Part shown: positions 28,170-33,743 of the stretch, one piece after another
Position numbering within the stretch: the stretch's first letter is position 1
How the letters are laid out: every line of letters begins with the position of its first letter
Program-made: the position numbers and the translations under genes
Source: Terriglobia bacterium
Lineage (GTDB): Bacteria; Acidobacteriota; Terriglobia; UBA7540
DNA: 36,933 nt
Direction: 5' to 3'
NCBI GenBank assembly: GCA_020073545.1
Contig: JAIQEZ010000036.1
Location: 1 to 36,933 of the forward strand
The notes under the pieces: generated by a model
Seen by the model: the letters and a program-made list of their open reading frames with translations, nothing else
The model's database searches: none
What the model was told of the DNA's origin: nothing

Positions 28170-28177
28170 CCGCGGCG
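28170..28177. repeat. Left copy of 8-bp target-site duplication
   Basis: CCGCGGCG immediately precedes the left terminal inverted repeat and is repeated exactly at 31207-31214 after the right one. IS1-family elements usually make 8-9 bp duplications. Confidence 0.85.
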
Positions 28178-28196
28178 GGTAGTGTCCTAGTTTGAA
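28178..28196. repeat. Left terminal inverted repeat of the IS1-like element
   Basis: GGTAGTGTCCTAGTTTGAA, identical over 19 nt to the reverse complement of the right end (31188-31206). Weaker similarity continues inward for about 10 nt. Confidence 0.92.
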
Positions 28197-28251
28197 ATTT
28201 TTAGATGATTTTGTCGCTTGTACCCGCCCTCGGGGCGTGGCACATGGGGCC

Positions 28252-28347
28252 ATGCCGAAGAAGCCCGCCAAGCGAAAGTCACGGGAAGACACAAACCAGA
28301 TTGCCTACCGAGTGATGCAAGAGGTAATTAGGCGAAGCGAGGCATAG
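28252..28347 (+). CDS. 31-residue Lys/Arg-rich ORF at the left end of the element
   Basis: It begins MPKKPAKRKSREDTNQIAYR and continues as a short amphipathic helix, ending at 28347, the base before the convergent DUF3467-like stop. The basic N-terminus followed by a REDxNQxA-like helix reads like a conserved micro-protein rather than random sequence, but I know no function. No strong ribosome binding site is seen; GGGGCC precedes it. Confidence 0.4.
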   Translation: MPKKPAKRKSREDTNQIAYRVMQEVIRRSEA

Positions 28348-28704
28348 CTAGGAAATTCGATCTGGGGGTATGATTATACGGGCTTTATCACTGGATTGAA
28401 TATCCCTGAGCTTCCCAAATTGCTTTTCATATGATTCAACGTACTTATGCAAATTGTCAGCAAGAAGCTTTAGGGTTTCTGGCGTCATGATTACAGATAA
28501 GAGCCGTCTATCCACGATTTCGGTAGGACTTGTTGGAAATGTCTCGATCATATACATCCTAACGTCGAGCGGCCCCAAAACAATTTGAAAGCCGTTGGCG
28601 TATAGCTGTGGAACCATCGGTGCATTTTCGGCACGCCTTACGACCCCCGGGGTTCCCGCGACAACGGACACCGCATCTTGCTCAACTTGTTTCTTTTTTG
28701 GCAT
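28348..28704 (-). CDS. DUF3467-like small protein
   Basis: A 118-residue protein. The central region (YANGFQIVLGPLDVRMYM, then VIMTPETLKLLADNLHKYV and ESYEKQFGKL) fits the DUF3467 pattern: an N-terminal YAN motif, a beta-rich core, and a C-terminal helix ending in YExxFG. Function of the family is unknown. The start at 28704 is preferred because GAGGAG lies 9 nt upstream; the ATG at 28713 directly abuts that box. It is 21 nt downstream of the antitoxin gene, so it is probably the third gene of the toxin-antitoxin operon. Confidence 0.68.
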   Translation of the reverse strand: MPKKKQVEQDAVSVVAGTPGVVRRAENAPMVPQLYANGFQIVLGPLDVRMYMIETFPTSPTEIVDRRLLSVIMTPETLKLLADNLHKYVESYEKQFGKLRDIQSSDKARIIIPPDRIS

Positions 28705-28725
28705 GAGATTCATCTCCTCTGGAAA

Positions 28726-29400
28726 CTATATTGTCGGCAATTCCCGTGTTATAGCAGGAGCATTAATGGCCGCCTCGCGACCTGGCAAGAGTTTGGTCTT
28801 TGCTAGCAACTCAAGATTATAAGTAGTATCTAAAGAGTTAATGACCGCGCCTTGCCCCATCAAACATGAAATCCAATCGTACTCTTTCCCTGTAACGTCC
28901 GGGATGGCACCCAACAAGATGTTGTTTCCCAACAAGTGATAAAGTGTTTTCCCACCTGTCACGAGATAGGGTGGTTGTTCAGTAGGCTGATTCTGCACGT
29001 TCCCCGCGATGAACGAGTCCTTCTCTAAGGGAAGTCTTTCAAGGGACTGCCTATCGAAAGTATCTATTTCATGGGGAAGAGTCCCGAATTCTTCAAACGA
29101 TACTTTTAGCCGCAAATGAAACGCCTGCGCCAAACGCCAAAGCGTACTGATACTCCAAGATGAGTAATTCACATCCTCCATGACCGCAATCCGGGGCTGC
29201 TTCATTCCGGCTTCGTCGGCTAACTGACCTTGCGTCCATTCGCGTTGCTCGCGAATAACCTTGATCTGGGTCGCGATATAGGCATTCAACGCACTGCGAG
29301 CATAAGCGTCGGCATAGTCACGGTCCCTAAACGACTTCCGCAAGCGCTCGGTTGTTGTCGGCCCGTTGGAAAGCACCGGATTATCAGAAGTCGGTGTCAT
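28726..29400 (-). CDS. XRE-family antitoxin/regulator with long C-terminal extension
   Basis: A 224-residue protein. After a leader containing RDYADAYARSALNAYIATQI comes a helix-turn-helix (about 45-90: WTQGQLADEAGMKQPRIAVME). This resembles HigA-type antitoxins, which bind the toxin and repress the operon. The further about 110 residues, which include an NNILLGAIPDVTGKEYDW segment, are unusual: HigA proteins are commonly about 100 residues. The start at 29400 follows AGGAGG by 8 nt and overlaps the upstream toxin gene by 17 nt. The toxin-before-antitoxin order is that of higBA. Confidence 0.75.
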   Translation of the reverse strand: MTPTSDNPVLSNGPTTTERLRKSFRDRDYADAYARSALNAYIATQIKVIREQREWTQGQLADEAGMKQPRIAVMEDVNYSSWSISTLWRLAQAFHLRLKVSFEEFGTLPHEIDTFDRQSLERLPLEKDSFIAGNVQNQPTEQPPYLVTGGKTLYHLLGNNILLGAIPDVTGKEYDWISCLMGQGAVINSLDTTYNLELLAKTKLLPGREAAINAPAITRELPTI

Positions 29401-29773
29401 GCCTTCGCCTCCTATTCGAATCACCAATGATGATTTTGCGGTTGGCTTCAGCTCTTCCTGGGGCATCTATTGGGTCGAGATTGCCGCCCCGCTCTACGCA
29501 CCCAAGCAGGAACGTGTATTCAACATCGTTTTTGATTGGGCATTTGCACAGCATGGGACGGAGTTGGACCCGCCCCTTTACTTTCAGCTTGTAAATGTGC
29601 CCGTCAATCGGACCCGCAAGTAACTGCGGCGGCAGTGTGCCTGCTTGGCGTAGCAGGTCTACCTTTTGGTTCAAAATTGCTATCGCTGCCTTTTGAATTT
29701 TCGCGCGTCGAATCCACTCGACAATGATTCCACTTCCGCGATGGTCCAAAAACTCGTATATGTCCCAAGGCAT
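29384..29773 (-). CDS. HigB/Gp49-like toxin of the RelE/ParE superfamily
   Basis: A 129-residue protein. The pattern YEFLDHRGSGIIVEWI, a helical pair with LLRQAGTLPPQLLAGPIDGH, then IYKLKVKGRVQLRPML and a late EYTFLLGC strand, fits phage-derived Gp49-like/HigB toxins. These cleave ribosome-bound mRNA. The canonical basic residues are partly kept (the R in VQLRPML), but the usual lysine-rich end after the last strand is replaced by ERGGNLDP, so activity is uncertain. A TATAAT (plus 29790-29795) lies 17 nt before the ATG, giving a very short leader with no clear ribosome binding site. Confidence 0.68.
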   Translation of the reverse strand: MPWDIYEFLDHRGSGIIVEWIRRAKIQKAAIAILNQKVDLLRQAGTLPPQLLAGPIDGHIYKLKVKGRVQLRPMLCKCPIKNDVEYTFLLGCVERGGNLDPIDAPGRAEANRKIIIGDSNRRRRHDTDF

Positions 29774-29789
29774 AGAATATCACGAAATT

Positions 29790-29795
29790 ATTATA
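29790..29795 (-). promoter_or_regulatory. -10 box of the toxin-antitoxin operon
   Basis: TATAAT on the minus strand lies 17 nt before the toxin ATG. No good -35 hexamer is at the right distance, which suggests an activator or an extended context. The predicted mRNA would be nearly leaderless. Confidence 0.4.
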
Positions 29796-29827
29796 AGGCA
29801 AGCAGGTTCCTTCCTTGATTTCTTCTC

Positions 29828-29843
29828 ATAATAATATTATTAT
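29828..29843. promoter_or_regulatory. 16-bp AT palindrome, candidate operator
   Basis: The perfect palindrome ATAATAATATTATTAT lies about 55 nt upstream of the toxin gene. It overlaps a plus-strand promoter-like pair, TTGATT (29815-29820) and TATTAT (29838-29843) with a 17-nt spacer, that could drive the tRNA-like gene. It could be the XRE regulator's operator, controlling both directions. Confidence 0.45.
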
Positions 29844-29924
29844 ACTGCCCGAGGATCATGAAAATTGCGCCAGAAATTCGATGCCGTGGACCACCCATCA
29901 AGCAAGGCAACCTTGGGGATGGCA

Positions 29925-29954
29925 CAGGGGAGCAGTCGATTAGATGCTCCCCTG
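29925..29954 (+). other. 10-bp hairpin directly 5' of the tRNA-like gene
   Basis: Perfect stem CAGGGGAGCA / TGCTCCCCTG with a 10-nt loop, ending 7 nt before the tRNA-like sequence. There is no T-tract. It could be a processing signal or part of one structured RNA together with the tRNA. Confidence 0.6.
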
Positions 29955-29961
29955 CTCTCTG

Positions 29962-30037
29962 GTGCCCCCGTAGCTCAGTAGGAAAGAGCGGCCCCATGCT
30001 AAGGGGAGGGCCGACAGTTCGAACCTGTCCGGGGCAC
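29962..30037 (+). tRNA. tRNA-like gene, anticodon GCU, short variable arm
   Basis: Visible parts are the U8-A9 equivalent, D-stem GCTC/GAGC with loop AGTAGGAAA, anticodon arm CCCC-ATGCTAA-GGGG (anticodon GCT, 29998-30000), a 5-nt variable loop, and T-arm GACAG-TTCGAAC-CTGTC. The ends GTGCCCC and GGGGCAC pair perfectly, but with canonical D-arm spacing the acceptor stem needs a bulged C (29969), and 27-43 is a G-A mismatch. GCU would decode serine AGC/AGU codons, yet serine tRNAs have long variable arms. No CCA is encoded. It may be a divergent functional tRNA, a tRNA decoy or a decaying copy. Confidence 0.6.
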
Positions 30038-30042
30038 TAGTA

Positions 30043-30213
30043 TCATTGGGATGCTTGCTTGGCCTTTTCCTTTGCCCAACGCGCTTGAACAGCTTTTCTT
30101 GCGCTTTCAGTACGCTCTTCGGCTGTCATCTTTGCGGCCCTTGCGGGTCCACCTTTCTTCCCGCCCCTTCGGCCTAGGGCCACAGCATAAGGGTTTTTCC
30201 GTTTATTTGCCAT
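30043..30213 (-). CDS. 56-residue basic protein of the GRRGGKKGG...ARWAK type
   Basis: MANKRKNPYAVALGRRGG opens it, followed by a Gly/Lys-rich segment and the helix ERTESARKAVQARWAKEK. Small proteins with a G-R/K-GG-x-x-GG-x-ARA motif and a C-terminal ARWAK helix are widespread in bacteria and have no assigned function; the charge suggests nucleic-acid binding. The start at 30213 has GGAG immediately upstream and a TATAAT (plus 30221-30226) just before that. It is transcribed divergently from the transposase. Confidence 0.62.
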   Translation of the reverse strand: MANKRKNPYAVALGRRGGKKGGPARAAKMTAEERTESARKAVQARWAKEKAKQASQ

Positions 30214-30233
30214 ACTCCATATTATACATGACC

Positions 30234-30318
30234 GCTCTTGTGTCATACGCAAGCGGTCACGTATATCTATGAAAGGAGGGCAAATATAGCTCTTGACACA
30301 TACGTGAGCGCGCACGTA
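30234..30318. promoter_or_regulatory. Two 30-nt direct repeats in the divergent transposase promoter
   Basis: Copies at 30234-30263 and 30289-30318 agree at 23 of 30 positions (core GCTCTTG, CATACG, AGCG, CACGTA) with a 55-bp period. The second copy contains TTGACA (30293-30298), the probable transposase -35, and the near-palindrome TACGTGAGCGCGCACGTA. The layout suggests two operators controlling the transposase and possibly the divergent small gene. Confidence 0.5.
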
Positions 30319-30345
30319 CCACGTGTTTCTAAGTTAGGAGATGCC

Positions 30346-31197
30346 ATGAACGGACTGACCCGCGAAAAACAAGCTCAAATCATATCGGCGCTGATTGAAG
30401 GAAACTCTATTCGCGCTACTTCCCGCAGGTTTGGAGTATCGAAGGATACCGTGTTAAAACTCCAAGTCGAAGCAGGCTATGCAGGCGCCGATTATCAGGA
30501 TAAGACTTTCCGTGGCCTGACTTGCAAGCGCGTGCAATGCGACGAAGTGTGGGCCTTCTGCTACGCCAAGGAAAAGAACGTTCCGGCAGACAAGAAAGGG
30601 AAATTCGGATTCGGTGACGTGTGGACCTGGACCGCAATTGACGCGCAAACAAAATTGATTCCCTCTTTCACAATCGGCAATCGTGATACTGCTAGCGCCC
30701 GCATTCTGATTGACGATTTAGCTGGTCGGCTCAAGAATCGCATTCAACTGACAACCGATGGATTAAAGGTATATCTTGAGGCTATTGAGGGTGCCTTCGG
30801 TTGCGAGATCGATTACGCTATGCTCGTTAAGACCTACGAATCAAGCCAAGAGGAAACACGCTACAGCCCGGCTGTTTGTACCTCCTGCGAGCGCAAGCCG
30901 GTCATGGGGAAGCCCGATCCTGACCATATTTCGAGTTCCTATGTCGAACGCTCGAATTTGAGTATCAGAATGGAGACTCGGAGATTTACCCGGTTGACCA
31001 ACGCTTTCAGCAAGAAAGTTGAGAATCATGCGGCTGCCGTGGCGCTCTACTTCATGCACTATAATTTCTGCCGGGCGCATCAGACGTTGCGGGGGACTCC
31101 GGCCATGGAAGCCAAGCTCGCGGACCATATTTGGACAATTGAAGAGATGCTTGGGGCAATTGGATTGCCAAATGGAACATTTGAGAATTCAAACTAG
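30346..31197 (+). CDS. IS1-family-like DDE transposase
   Basis: A 283-residue transposase. An N-terminal helix-turn-helix (about 18-42: IRATSRRFGVSKDTVLKL) precedes an RNase H-like core with the probable DDE triad D66 (QCDEVWAF), D138 (TTDGLKVY) and E201 (SYVERSNL). The C-terminal HYNFCRAHQTLRGTPA is typical of the longer, single-frame IS1-like group; no frameshift is needed. AGGAG lies 5 nt before the ATG at 30346. The reading frame is intact and ends inside the right inverted repeat, so the element looks potentially active. Confidence 0.92.
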   Translation: MNGLTREKQAQIISALIEGNSIRATSRRFGVSKDTVLKLQVEAGYAGADYQDKTFRGLTCKRVQCDEVWAFCYAKEKNVPADKKGKFGFGDVWTWTAIDAQTKLIPSFTIGNRDTASARILIDDLAGRLKNRIQLTTDGLKVYLEAIEGAFGCEIDYAMLVKTYESSQEETRYSPAVCTSCERKPVMGKPDPDHISSSYVERSNLSIRMETRRFTRLTNAFSKKVENHAAAVALYFMHYNFCRAHQTLRGTPAMEAKLADHIWTIEEMLGAIGLPNGTFENSN

Positions 31198-31206
31198 GAC
31201 ACTACC
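31188..31206. repeat. Right terminal inverted repeat of the IS1-like element
   Basis: TTCAAACTAGGACACTACC, the exact inverse of the left end. The transposase stop TAG (31195-31197) lies within it. Confidence 0.92.
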
Positions 31207-31214
31207 CCGCGGCG
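31207..31214. repeat. Right copy of 8-bp target-site duplication
   Basis: CCGCGGCG, identical to 28170-28177. Confidence 0.85.
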
Positions 31215-31289
31215 GGCGCCACGTGATGTGGCATGAGCCGGGACGGGTGGTTGGTGTATTCTGTTCCTATGCGGCTGAGGGGGACTGCC

Positions 31290-33743
31290 ATGCCTTGGCG
31301 ACGCGGGAGGAGTCTTCTCTTCCTGGGCCTTCTTGTAGGTGTTTTGCCGCCGTGTCTCCAGCAGGCGGCGGGACAGGCCGCTGCACCACAAACCGCCCAG
31401 ACAATTCAGAGTGTCCCTCCGCAGTCCGCTCCCTCAACCGCAGAAGAGTTCCTGCAACGAGGCAACGAGTCCTCGCGCCAGGGCAAGTGGGACCAGGCGA
31501 TTGAGGCGTATAAGAAGGCCCTTGACCTGAGGCCCGGCTACGTCGAGGCGCATTACAATCTCGGGAATGCCTATGGCGCTGAGCAGAAAACCGCTGAAGC
31601 CCTCGAAGAGTATCGGGAAGTGCTCCGCCTCCGGCCGGACTTCCCCGGCGTCCACCTGAACATCGGCGCGCTGGAAGAATCTGCCGGGAAGCTTTCCGAG
31701 GCCATCGAAGAATATCGTGCCGAAACCCGCTTACATCCTTCCAATGCCGACGCCCATGTGGACCTGGCCAATGCGCTGACCTTGAGCCGGGCGTTCAGCG
31801 AGGCGATTGGCGAGTACCGCACAGCGCGGGCGCTCGCGCCGCGCGATTTGGAAGTCCGCATGGCCCTGGCGAGCGCGCTCCTTCAATCCGGCGACGCTAA
31901 AGGGGCTGCCGCGGAATATCGCCAAGCTATCGAATTAGACCCCCAGAACCCTGACGCCCATGCCGGACTTGCAGCAGCGCTGACCCAAGCGGGAAATTTC
32001 GCGGAGGGCATCAACGACTACCGCGCGGCCTCGCGCCTGCGCCCCAACGATCCCGAGCTCCACTTGAGTTTGGCAGGGGCCCTGCGCGCCACCGATGACC
32101 TGATTCCCGCCATCGCGGAATACCGGCAGGCGGTGCAACTTCGCCCCGAACAAGTGGACTACCGTTTCGCTCTGGCACTGGCCCTGCGACAAGCTGGCGA
32201 CTATGGCGGCGCCATCGAAGAACTCCGCCGCGTCGTCCGCCAGCGGCCTGACAACGCCTCAGTGCATGCGGAACTCGCCGCCGCCTACCTCTCCACGGGG
32301 GACCATCTTGCTGCCGTCAGCGAATACCATGAGGCTCTGCGGCTGAGGCCTGAGGACCCGGCGCTTCACGAAGCGTTGGGGCTCGTCCTCCGGAAGACGG
32401 GCGACTTGGCAGATTCGATTCGCGAACTCCGCAAGGCCGTTGAACTCGCAAACGATGAACCTGGCTACCATCGCAACTTGGCGGAGGCTTTCCAGGCCGC
32501 CGGTGACGTCGCAGGCTTCGTGCAGGAATATCGCGAGGAAGTTCGCCTGCGCCCCGACGACCCTGATGCTCACGCACACCTCGCCAATGCCTATCAGGCC
32601 GCCGGCGAATTCCAAAACTCGTTCGGAGAATATCAGGTCGCCTTGAAGCTTCGGCCGCAGAGTCCGGAATTTCATTTTCGGACAGCGCTTGTCCTGGAAG
32701 CGCTGGGGAAGAAGGAGGAGGCCCGGGCGATGCTTGAACAAGCGGTTCGACTGCGGCCGGACTATGCCGAAGGTCTGGTCGCTTTAGGTGATTTACTCGC
32801 CCTGGAGAAAAGCTTCGCGCTGGCGGTAGCGACTTACCGCGACGCGCTGCGCCTGCGGCCGGACGATCCGAGCCTGCATGCGAGTCTGGCGGCAGCACTG
32901 CGTCAGAACAGTGATCTGGAGGGCGCGCTCACCGAGGCTCGTGAAGCCGTCCGCCTTAATCCCACGAATCCGGACTATCAGCGCGAGCTTGGAAACACCC
33001 TTTACAGCCGCGGCGACTTCAAGGGGGCTGTAGAAGCCTATCACGCCAGCCTGTCGCGACACGAAGACTCCCAGACAGAGGAAAACCTGGGGCTGGCTCT
33101 TAGTCAGTCCGCAGACTGGCAAGGCGCGGCCGAGGCTTTTCGCGCGGCGCTAAAGGTGCTCCCCGAGTGGTCTGAGGCCCACGTGAATCTCTCCATCGCC
33201 CTTTCTCATCTGAACGACCCCGCCGGGGCGGCCGCGGAAGCGCAGGCAGCTCTACGCGTGACGCCCTATCTCCCCGAAGCACACTTCGCCCTCGGTAGCG
33301 CTTGGTCGCGCCTGGGGAAGACGGATGATGCCATCACGGAGTATCGCGAAGCCTTACGCACCAAGCCGGATTACGCCGACGCCCGGCTGGGGCTGGCCAA
33401 CGCGCTGCGCCAACAGGGCAACCTCGACGAAGCAATTTCGAACTATCGCGAATACCTCCAGATACGGCCCCAGGAAGTCAGTGCCCGGGTGAGTTTGGCG
33501 AATGCCTTGAGGGGTAGGAACGACATCGACGGCGCGATTCACGAATACGAGGAAGCCCTCCGCCTCCGCCCGGACTATCCCAATGCGCATTACAACCTGG
33601 CGGTGACTCTGGAAGGCGCGGGCCAATTCGCACGAGCCCGCCAGGAGTTCGAGGCCTATCTCCAACTGGCTCCCGACGCTCCGGATGCCGAACAGGTTCG
33701 CAAACATTTAAAGGAAGTCGGGGCTCCGCCCAACGAAAAGTGA
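31290..33743 (+). CDS. Exported protein made of about 22 TPR repeats
   Basis: An 817-residue protein with a signal peptide (about 1-28, ending AAGQ). From about residue 50 to the end it consists of tandem 34-residue tetratricopeptide repeats with the consensus positions W/L, G, Y, A, F/Y, A and P (for example AIEAYKKALDLRPGYVEAHY). There is no additional domain. TPR superhelices are protein-binding scaffolds; the target is unknown. The start at 31290 follows GAGGGGGA, and the in-frame ATG at 31269 has no ribosome binding site. The IS1-like element ends 83 nt upstream, so the native promoter may have been displaced or replaced. Confidence 0.9.
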   Translation: MPWRRGRSLLFLGLLVGVLPPCLQQAAGQAAAPQTAQTIQSVPPQSAPSTAEEFLQRGNESSRQGKWDQAIEAYKKALDLRPGYVEAHYNLGNAYGAEQKTAEALEEYREVLRLRPDFPGVHLNIGALEESAGKLSEAIEEYRAETRLHPSNADAHVDLANALTLSRAFSEAIGEYRTARALAPRDLEVRMALASALLQSGDAKGAAAEYRQAIELDPQNPDAHAGLAAALTQAGNFAEGINDYRAASRLRPNDPELHLSLAGALRATDDLIPAIAEYRQAVQLRPEQVDYRFALALALRQAGDYGGAIEELRRVVRQRPDNASVHAELAAAYLSTGDHLAAVSEYHEALRLRPEDPALHEALGLVLRKTGDLADSIRELRKAVELANDEPGYHRNLAEAFQAAGDVAGFVQEYREEVRLRPDDPDAHAHLANAYQAAGEFQNSFGEYQVALKLRPQSPEFHFRTALVLEALGKKEEARAMLEQAVRLRPDYAEGLVALGDLLALEKSFALAVATYRDALRLRPDDPSLHASLAAALRQNSDLEGALTEAREAVRLNPTNPDYQRELGNTLYSRGDFKGAVEAYHASLSRHEDSQTEENLGLALSQSADWQGAAEAFRAALKVLPEWSEAHVNLSIALSHLNDPAGAAAEAQAALRVTPYLPEAHFALGSAWSRLGKTDDAITEYREALRTKPDYADARLGLANALRQQGNLDEAISNYREYLQIRPQEVSARVSLANALRGRNDIDGAIHEYEEALRLRPDYPNAHYNLAVTLEGAGQFARARQEFEAYLQLAPDAPDAEQVRKHLKEVGAPPNEK

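Follow-up and report, generated by a model that had tools for sequence, protein, structure and literature searches.

The stretch of DNA analysed here, 36,933 nucleotides of contig JAIQEZ010000036.1 from a Terriglobia bacterium and referred to below as the window, contains at positions 28178-31206 one delimited element of 3,029 bp. This is very probably a complete unit transposon of an IS1-like family, which combines exchangeable cargo with, in this copy, an Arg-type tRNA displaying a Ser anticodon. A preliminary description of the same DNA had claimed exact ends, and these are confirmed as perfect 19-bp inverted repeats flanked by the 8-bp duplication CCGCGGCG; the repeat tool gives 20 bp for the ends, as the bases just outside pair too. 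The ends, of insertion sequence (IS) type, enclose genes unrelated to transposition, and the element is built as follows.

28170..28177, no strand: left copy of the target duplication, CCGCGGCG, 8 bp, recovered automatically by the end search.
28178..28196, plus strand: left terminal inverted repeat, GGTAGTGTCCTAGTTTGAA, a perfect 19 bp.
28252..28347, plus strand: short open reading frame (ORF) of 31 amino acids, like the N-terminal part of the KGG/ARW protein that is a hallmark of the family; it clusters with L006 (C12) and resembles full-length left-end proteins at their N-termini.
28348..28713, minus strand: DUF3467 protein of 121 amino acids (Pfam PF11950, 39.8 bits, cut-off 25, E 4.8e-10).
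28726..29400, minus strand: putative XRE-type antitoxin with its ATG at 29400 in an ORF open to 29466; Pfam HTH_37/HTH_3 just past the cut-off, aligned family A6.
29384..29773, minus strand: predicted HigB/RelE-fold toxin of 129 amino acids, overlapping the antitoxin start; assigned from a predicted-structure match and the L015 homologue.
29962..30038, plus strand: tRNA gene with class I body, anticodon GCU (Ser AGC/AGU) and Arg-type D-loop (ARAGORN; Rfam RF00005).
30043..30213, minus strand: short ORF of 56 amino acids with a C-terminal KGG/ARW domain, ahead of the transposase.
30293..30319, plus strand: TTGACA-like box and imperfect palindrome ATACGTGAGCGCGCACGTAC, a putative promoter/operator recognised from the sequence upstream of the transposase.
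30346..31197, plus strand: DDE transposase of the IS1 superfamily, 283 amino acids (Pfam DDE_Tnp_IS1).
31188..31206, minus strand: right terminal inverted repeat, the perfect 19-bp partner of the left end.
31207..31214, no strand: right copy of the target duplication, CCGCGGCG, an exact 8-bp match to the left copy.

The locus without the element is preserved in relatives. In genome G006, of the same genus, the aligned flanks lie 177 bp apart, against 3,186 bp in the window, and in G010, G014, G016 and G026 both syntenic flanks are found within about 0.6 kb of each other with the element absent. Since the flanks of these five relatives lie close together without the element, the passengers belong to it. 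The preliminary description had held that the same passenger genes at this locus in element-free relatives would speak against a passenger-bearing transposon; the G006 locus has none of them, and together with the ends and the duplication it bears out a single-unit transposon with passengers. The variety of cargo described below suggests that the passengers would be dispensable for transposition.

The transposase forms one uninterrupted open frame and passes the Pfam model DDE_Tnp_IS1 (PF03400) with 28.6 bits (cut-off 24.1), while its residues D66, D138 and E201 are the same in all 123 relatives aligned; NCBI labels several of the plasmid relatives 'IS1 family transposase'. Thus, the earlier assignment as IS1-family-like with one intact DDE transposase stands as far as the Pfam match and the kept catalytic residues go, and falls short at the NCBIfam IS1 model, whose cut-off is missed. 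Textbook IS1 is about 0.77 kb long and compact without passengers, with two frames joined by a frameshift and ends of GGT type. The window element shares with the IS1 family the IS1-superfamily DDE transposase and a short target duplication (8 bp here), and differs from it in the single 283-residue frame, at half the NCBIfam IS1 cut-off score; the length of 1.9-4.8 kb in 83 of 83 delimited elements, the KGG/ARW hallmark domain and the occasional tRNA genes set its family further apart. Palindromes of the TGCTTGAcCGcTCAAGCA type lie over the transposase promoter region, 17 of 91 being perfect over 7+7 positions, against 1 after shuffling. Because a palindrome overlies this region in many elements, a DNA-binding protein probably represses the transposase gene.

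The family was delimited from a transposase scan that returned 347 relatives, of which the best 80 were kept, so that close kin are favoured; 40 regions from genomes of the same phylum and three places in the window's own genome were added. Without presupposing any end sequence, the end search required inverted ends that agree at 12 or more of 16 positions and, next to them, an 8-bp duplication without mismatch. It gave 84 end pairs for 125 transposase places in 123 loci, of which 83 were kept after removal of a spurious pair at L075. In the control, inverted ends fire in 83 of 123 loci (a figure that includes the spurious L075 and misses L053), against 10, 4 and 4 for a direct, reversed and complemented second end, respectively. 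All 83 delimited elements have distinct 8-bp duplications, and GGTAGTG starts both ends in 69 of them. They measure between 1,908 and 4,826 bp (median 3,200), of which the transposase accounts for about 0.85 kb; homologues reduced to the transposase, which the preliminary description had named as a result that would detach the passengers from the transposon, are therefore not seen among the delimited elements. Nine elements with ends and no exact duplication complete the set of 92 used below.

The named hosts of the 92 elements span 15 phyla, and one short contig among them was assigned by binning to an archaeon; 30 elements are without a named host. At E 1e-40 the transposase is carried by 35 of 297 genomes of the phylum, 93 of 349 of the class and 20 of 39 of the family. 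Relatives are also encoded on 36 IMG/VR viral contigs (L210-L245), 18 of which give a complete element with an 8-bp duplication, and phage may ferry this transposon family. The smallest element on a viral contig (L217:5518-6840, 1,323 bp) consists of a truncated KGG gene, a Leu-type tRNA with the ochre-reading anticodon UUA and the transposase; its frames were checked for a left-end gene reading through into the transposase, and no simple fusion was found. The window's own genome holds two further relatives, one with in-frame transposase stops, a 2,540-bp outline and an exact duplication (L082, G000:C12) and one of 2,528 bp with a duplication matching at 4 of 8 positions (L083, G000:C57).

A small basic protein or domain of the pattern NPxAVALGRxGGxKGGKARA...AAxARW is present in 83 of the 92 elements, and in 61 its gene lies within 420 nucleotides of the left end, reading inwards. 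The two micro-proteins noticed earlier in the window are both there as ORFs; rather than separate proteins, they represent together a split form of this one hallmark protein, which is whole in other elements. The short form with the C-terminal KGG/ARW domain recurs in L001, L002, L003, L006, L082 and L151. The same motif opens BstA-like cargo proteins in L004, L016, L022, L045, L075 and L078; among these six KGG-headed proteins one that was checked is a Pfam P63C match and one a PADLOC BstA match. An AlphaFold model of the KGG protein displays helical segments only and no confident fold (predicted template modelling score 0.30).

The cargo of the family is rich in toxin-antitoxin and anti-phage-type genes relative to the flanks. 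The tally covers 150 cargo ORFs, leaving aside five of the six BstA-like ORFs and those below 85 amino acids, and the control is a random 150 of the 351 flank ORFs of the same loci, with ORFs above 1,500 amino acids skipped. Among cargo ORFs the Pfam families HTH_3 (17), Peptidase_M78 (8), DUF3467 (6) and N6_N4_Mtase (3) are the most prominent, with SocA, HigB, Gp49, Mrr and AAA more rarely, whereas no Pfam family, HTH_3 included, occurs in more than two flank ORFs. PADLOC families number 313 in cargo against 40 in flanks, where one protein may match many models and the figures are thus not gene counts; the commonest family has 10 members in cargo and 2 in flanks. PD-Lambda-2_B is matched by 9 cargo members, and BstA is matched at E 3e-119. 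Profile searches over the 92 elements recovered XRE-M78 in 21 (some of which may be bare XRE domains, and 11 of which have a PD-Lambda-2-like partner gene), the window-type toxin in 9, DUF3467 in 9 and BstA in 9; the BstA count rests on a profile built without the KGG segment, which otherwise gives matches in 79 elements. In one plasmid locus (L248, Acidiphilium multivorum, NZ_CP041717) a RES domain/Xre toxin-antitoxin pair starts at the right boundary of the element (right end 5400).

The cargo is interchangeable, each kind changing on the transposase tree nearly as often as it has bearers. The number of changes relative to bearers is 18/21 for XRE-M78, 9/9 for the toxin, 8/9 for DUF3467, 9/9 for BstA and 16/17 for the tRNA, counts that stand beside no shuffled-label baseline. 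The elements L013 and L017, from one genome, are 80-90% alike in their ends and transposase half and have middles without a DNA match, and L033, L056 and L072 repeat this pattern of alike outside and unlike middle.

In the window the cargo is a predicted HigBA-like operon followed by DUF3467, in agreement with the toxin-antitoxin operon and DUF3467-like gene proposed earlier, DUF3467 being assigned through Pfam and the toxin through its modelled fold. The toxin itself has no Pfam or NCBIfam match, and neither it nor the DUF3467 protein matches PADLOC; the L015 homologue of the toxin passes the Pfam Gp49/HigB model (24.6 bits, cut-off 23.9). The AlphaFold model of the window toxin (predicted local distance difference test score 78.5) matches HigB of Streptococcus pneumoniae (6AF4) in Foldseek with probability 0.97 and E 0.0096, and in VIA with Z 6.5 and a root-mean-square deviation of 4.1 over 110 aligned residues, the next other entry having Z 3.1. 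Other RelE-type toxins (YafQ, HigB2, YoeB) reach only Z 2.0-3.1 in VIA, level with unrelated entries. With the XRE antitoxin gene downstream, the module shares with HigBA type II systems the toxin gene in first position, the overlapping XRE antitoxin and a HigB-like fold; it differs in the third gene, DUF3467, which among the copies examined accompanies only those in transposons, and often in a tRNA as well. Eleven toxin-XRE loci outside the transposon have neither a DUF3467 match nor a transposase in the fetched regions. The full trio is present in 8 of the 92 elements (the window, L015, L018, L032, L076, L130, L138 and L150), which carry eight different duplications, and two of the three genes in L048, L049 and L165. 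The preliminary description had proposed to look for the same passengers at other loci: the trio does recur in seven other elements with different duplications, and the set proves interchangeable rather than fixed.

The tRNA-like gene reported before is a real tRNA gene of a recurrent kind, recognised by ARAGORN and by Rfam RF00005 (45.7 bits, cut-off 29). Of the 92 elements, 12 have a tRNA by ARAGORN at default settings and 17 with two covariance models. Across 147 places, viral and plasmid loci included, 18 have a tRNA-like gene at most 400 nucleotides upstream of the transposase start, 18 of 18 on the transposase strand. A hold-out of 89 loci was scanned with the tRNA models; after removal of 4 repeats of the first set, 11 of the 85 further loci have such a gene within 420 nucleotides, 9 of them on the transposase strand. 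Pooling both sets, 27 of 29 upstream tRNA-like genes share the strand of the transposase, and the tRNA density of the genome (49 matches in 5.28 Mb) would predict about 0.9 in 232 such stretches. The tRNA-like gene at L356:304-378 has the amber-reading anticodon CUA and lies about 200 nucleotides from a transposase start, on the opposite strand.

These tRNAs mostly join bodies and anticodons that do not belong together. With the anticodon masked (in L130 and L133 it was not maskable), the nearest host body fits the isotype of the anticodon for 26 of 30 host and 12 of 14 flank tRNAs and for 1 of 17 element tRNAs. The host set omits 5 of 45 (a second Asn, one partial Ser, one Met-type and two Leu-type with UGG, mismatched themselves); the 14 flank tRNAs were chosen, others such as L067:9112, L034:8010, L033 and L012 being left out, and the aberrant element matches of L006, L068, L143, L151 and L159 were omitted along with hold-out and viral tRNAs. 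Eight element tRNAs, including that of the window, display a Ser anticodon (GCU or ACU, reading AGY codons) on a class I body, whereas the host has a proper class II tRNA-Ser(GCU). The D-loop GGA..AGA(G/T)C is found in 7 of these 8 AGY tRNAs, in 5 of 5 host Arg tRNAs and in 0 of 28 other class I host tRNAs. Over their four stems 94.6% of cells are paired and 15 of 21 pairs have changed on both sides (0 of 500 shuffles), a pattern by which the cloverleaf appears to be kept by selection. Other tRNAs of the family have Ser-type bodies with GUA, UAU, UCG or UGC, or Leu-type bodies with UUA (L129, L217); the UAU tRNA of L126 is carried by a transposon of this family. In L021, L126, L131 and L143 large look-alike cargo proteins, DUF5343-like and reaching the Pfam DUF5343 cut-off in L126 only, stand beside tRNA-like genes.

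SerRS and LeuRS ignore the anticodon, and ArgRS reads A20 and C35. By these recognition rules most element tRNAs should be charged and should misread. The Arg-type D-loop kept in 7 of 8 AGY tRNAs suggests selection for charging. A tRNA is present in 5 of the 9 toxin-bearing elements (Fisher p 0.0097, kinship ignored). A HigB-XRE pair adjoining an ACU tRNA-like gene also occurs at L280:5173-5798, in a region where no transposase was found, perhaps a decayed element. At L286, another toxin-XRE locus outside the transposon, an ordinary tRNA-Gly lies at a distance of about 0.45 kb.

Several observations weigh against parts of this account. The window transposase reaches 50.1 bits in the NCBIfam IS1 model NF033558, whose cut-off is 100, and the elements compared include no pair of near-identical whole copies inserted at two sites. 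The VIA score of the toxin lies below 8, in the range where the tool warns of a merely common arrangement, and the flanks also hold defence-type matches, with single strong ones such as PD-Lambda-1 and mads. Among the 49 tRNA matches of its genome the window tRNA ranks only 45th by score, its isolated anticodon arm folds poorly and CCA is not encoded, for which reasons it may be decaying. Four of the nine toxin-bearing elements are without a tRNA, and a tree-aware test of the toxin-tRNA link, of low power, gives a median p of 0.5. The tRNA was also considered as a general part of HigB-XRE modules and rejected, 10 of the 11 non-transposon loci being without an adjoining mismatched tRNA and L280 forming the exception. 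Finally, two Leu-type class II tRNAs with a Pro anticodon (UGG) lie elsewhere in the window's genome (G000:C91:24653-24735 and G000:C195:50843-50926; L395, L396). The 6-8 kb fetched around them contain neither the family's transposase nor a GGTAGTG end nor a KGG domain, and these two genes rule out that mismatched tRNAs are exclusive to this transposon family.

Three other explanations were weighed. The tRNA may be a non-translating RNA that counters a tRNA-targeting toxin, as decoy or antitoxin, or that marks transcripts for processing, which is conceivable and on balance unlikely. The co-occurrence with the toxin and the tRNA-like gene beside the HigB-XRE pair of L280 are consistent with it, and excerpts of a review report RNAs resembling allo-tRNA(UAU) that are unusable for one host species (PMC7609411). 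Set against this, element tRNAs also neighbour other cargo, BstA (L028) and DUF5343-like genes included, several have kept CCA and the complete cloverleaf, and 7 of the 8 AGY tRNAs retain the Arg-type D-loop.

It is improbable that the window holds an ordinary transporter IS (tIS), that is, an IS1-family element without special biology that captured, on a single occasion, a toxin-antitoxin operon from a chromosome along with part of a tRNA. Passenger-bearing IS are indeed a known category in the portions of PMC3129680 and PMC7986276 that deal with them, toxin-XRE pairs occur outside the transposon, and the window's genome has mismatched tRNAs elsewhere. A single capture is opposed by the length of all 83 delimited elements, each sufficient for cargo, by the recurrence of the same cargo families in many hosts together with a hallmark second gene, and by tRNAs that occupy one place, mostly on one strand, at the same rate in the hold-out.

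The proposal that element genes use a reassigned codon and are expressed correctly only with the element's own tRNA is highly improbable. It would fit the tRNAs whose anticodons read stops (UUA in L129 and L217, CUA in L356) or are sense anticodons foreign to the body, and also a few transposase codons: in L165 an AGT falls in an 88% Arg column, and in L149 and L150 AGT codons fall in columns not rich in Ser (one 75% Lys and 12% Arg). Against it, the transposases of 16 tRNA-bearing loci place the codons concerned at conserved columns of the standard amino acid, with AGC/AGT at columns 95-100% Ser (window, L008, L076) and TAC/TAT at Tyr columns (L130, L138), and that of L129 has no in-frame TAA. 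Private recoding by the element tRNA is thus unsupported by the codon columns of the transposases, to which this comparison applies, a few codons of L149, L150 and L165 being left unsettled.

The transposon family can be set beside three known systems, each as described in excerpts of the sources cited. It shares with tIS (PMC3129680, PMC7986276) the IS-type ends, one transposase and genes unrelated to transposition, and differs in that cargo is the rule across the 92 elements and their 15 named phyla, and that genes for defence and toxin-antitoxin modules recur in interchangeable slots. Like Tn7-like transposons with defence cargo (PMC8649781) it ferries many kinds of defence genes; unlike them, its elements are small, have a single transposase that can be recognised and sit between 8-bp duplications at many sites unrelated to one another. 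The allo-tRNAs of soil bacteria (Mukai et al. 2017, as summarised in PMC7609411), known from Acidobacteria among others and with UAU and ochre anticodons, display the same mismatch of anticodon and body, seen here in 16 of 17 element tRNAs nearest another isotype against 4 of 30 host and 2 of 14 flank tRNAs. In contrast to the 8/4 or 9/3 form of allo-tRNAs, the window tRNA and the eight AGY tRNAs have an ordinary 7/5 branch (7-bp acceptor, 5-bp T stem), and many element tRNAs are Arg-type class I rather than Ser-type; the carrying transposon, moreover, is identified here. The UAU tRNA of L126 may form an extra pair at position -1. The preliminary description had found a passenger-bearing version unfamiliar: the tIS category as such is known, and no account of IS1-like elements with such cargo or tRNAs was recognised in the open-access literature searched, which does not comprise subscription papers, preprints or ISfinder.

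Around the element in the window, by eye, the right neighbour (31233-33743, plus strand) is an 836-residue ORF with many TPR-like repeats, and the left neighbours resemble parts of a polyamine-type ABC transporter.

In the explanation we favour, the DDE transposase would act on the GGTAGTG ends and leave the 8-bp duplication, the anatomy being observed and transposition deduced from it. In contrast to textbook IS1, extra DNA is present in every delimited copy examined. The small basic KGG/ARW protein accompanies the transposase, usually from just inside the left end and in the window as the two short ORFs. Exchangeable cargo occupies slots between the KGG/ARW gene and the transposase and to the right of the transposase, often with genes of toxin-antitoxin or anti-phage type. 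The predicted HigB-type toxin, XRE antitoxin and DUF3467 protein most likely keep the element or the host clone by addiction or abortive defence. About one eighth of the family's places hold a tRNA-like gene just upstream of the transposase, mostly with mismatched anticodon and body where tested, and ArgRS is expected to charge the window tRNA, which would place Arg at AGC/AGU codons. The likeliest role of the tRNA would be that of a mistranslating effector or a partner of linked toxin modules, rather than the decoding of the element's own genes. More broadly, and as a tentative proposal that we consider possible rather than likely, pan-phylum cargo transposons may carry anticodon-swapped, chargeable tRNAs as mobile mistranslation effectors, in the role of RNA toxins or anti-phage agents, that act alone or as part of linked toxin-antitoxin modules; such tRNAs would be Arg-type on Ser codons, Ser-type on Tyr, Ile, Arg or Ala codons, and Leu-type on UAA. 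The label 'IS1 family transposase', seen as trivial by annotation, becomes a pointer to small packages of toxin-antitoxin and anti-phage-type genes whose limits are exact. Each package is bounded by its ends and the 8-bp duplication, and unknown cargo genes inside it therefore become defence candidates.

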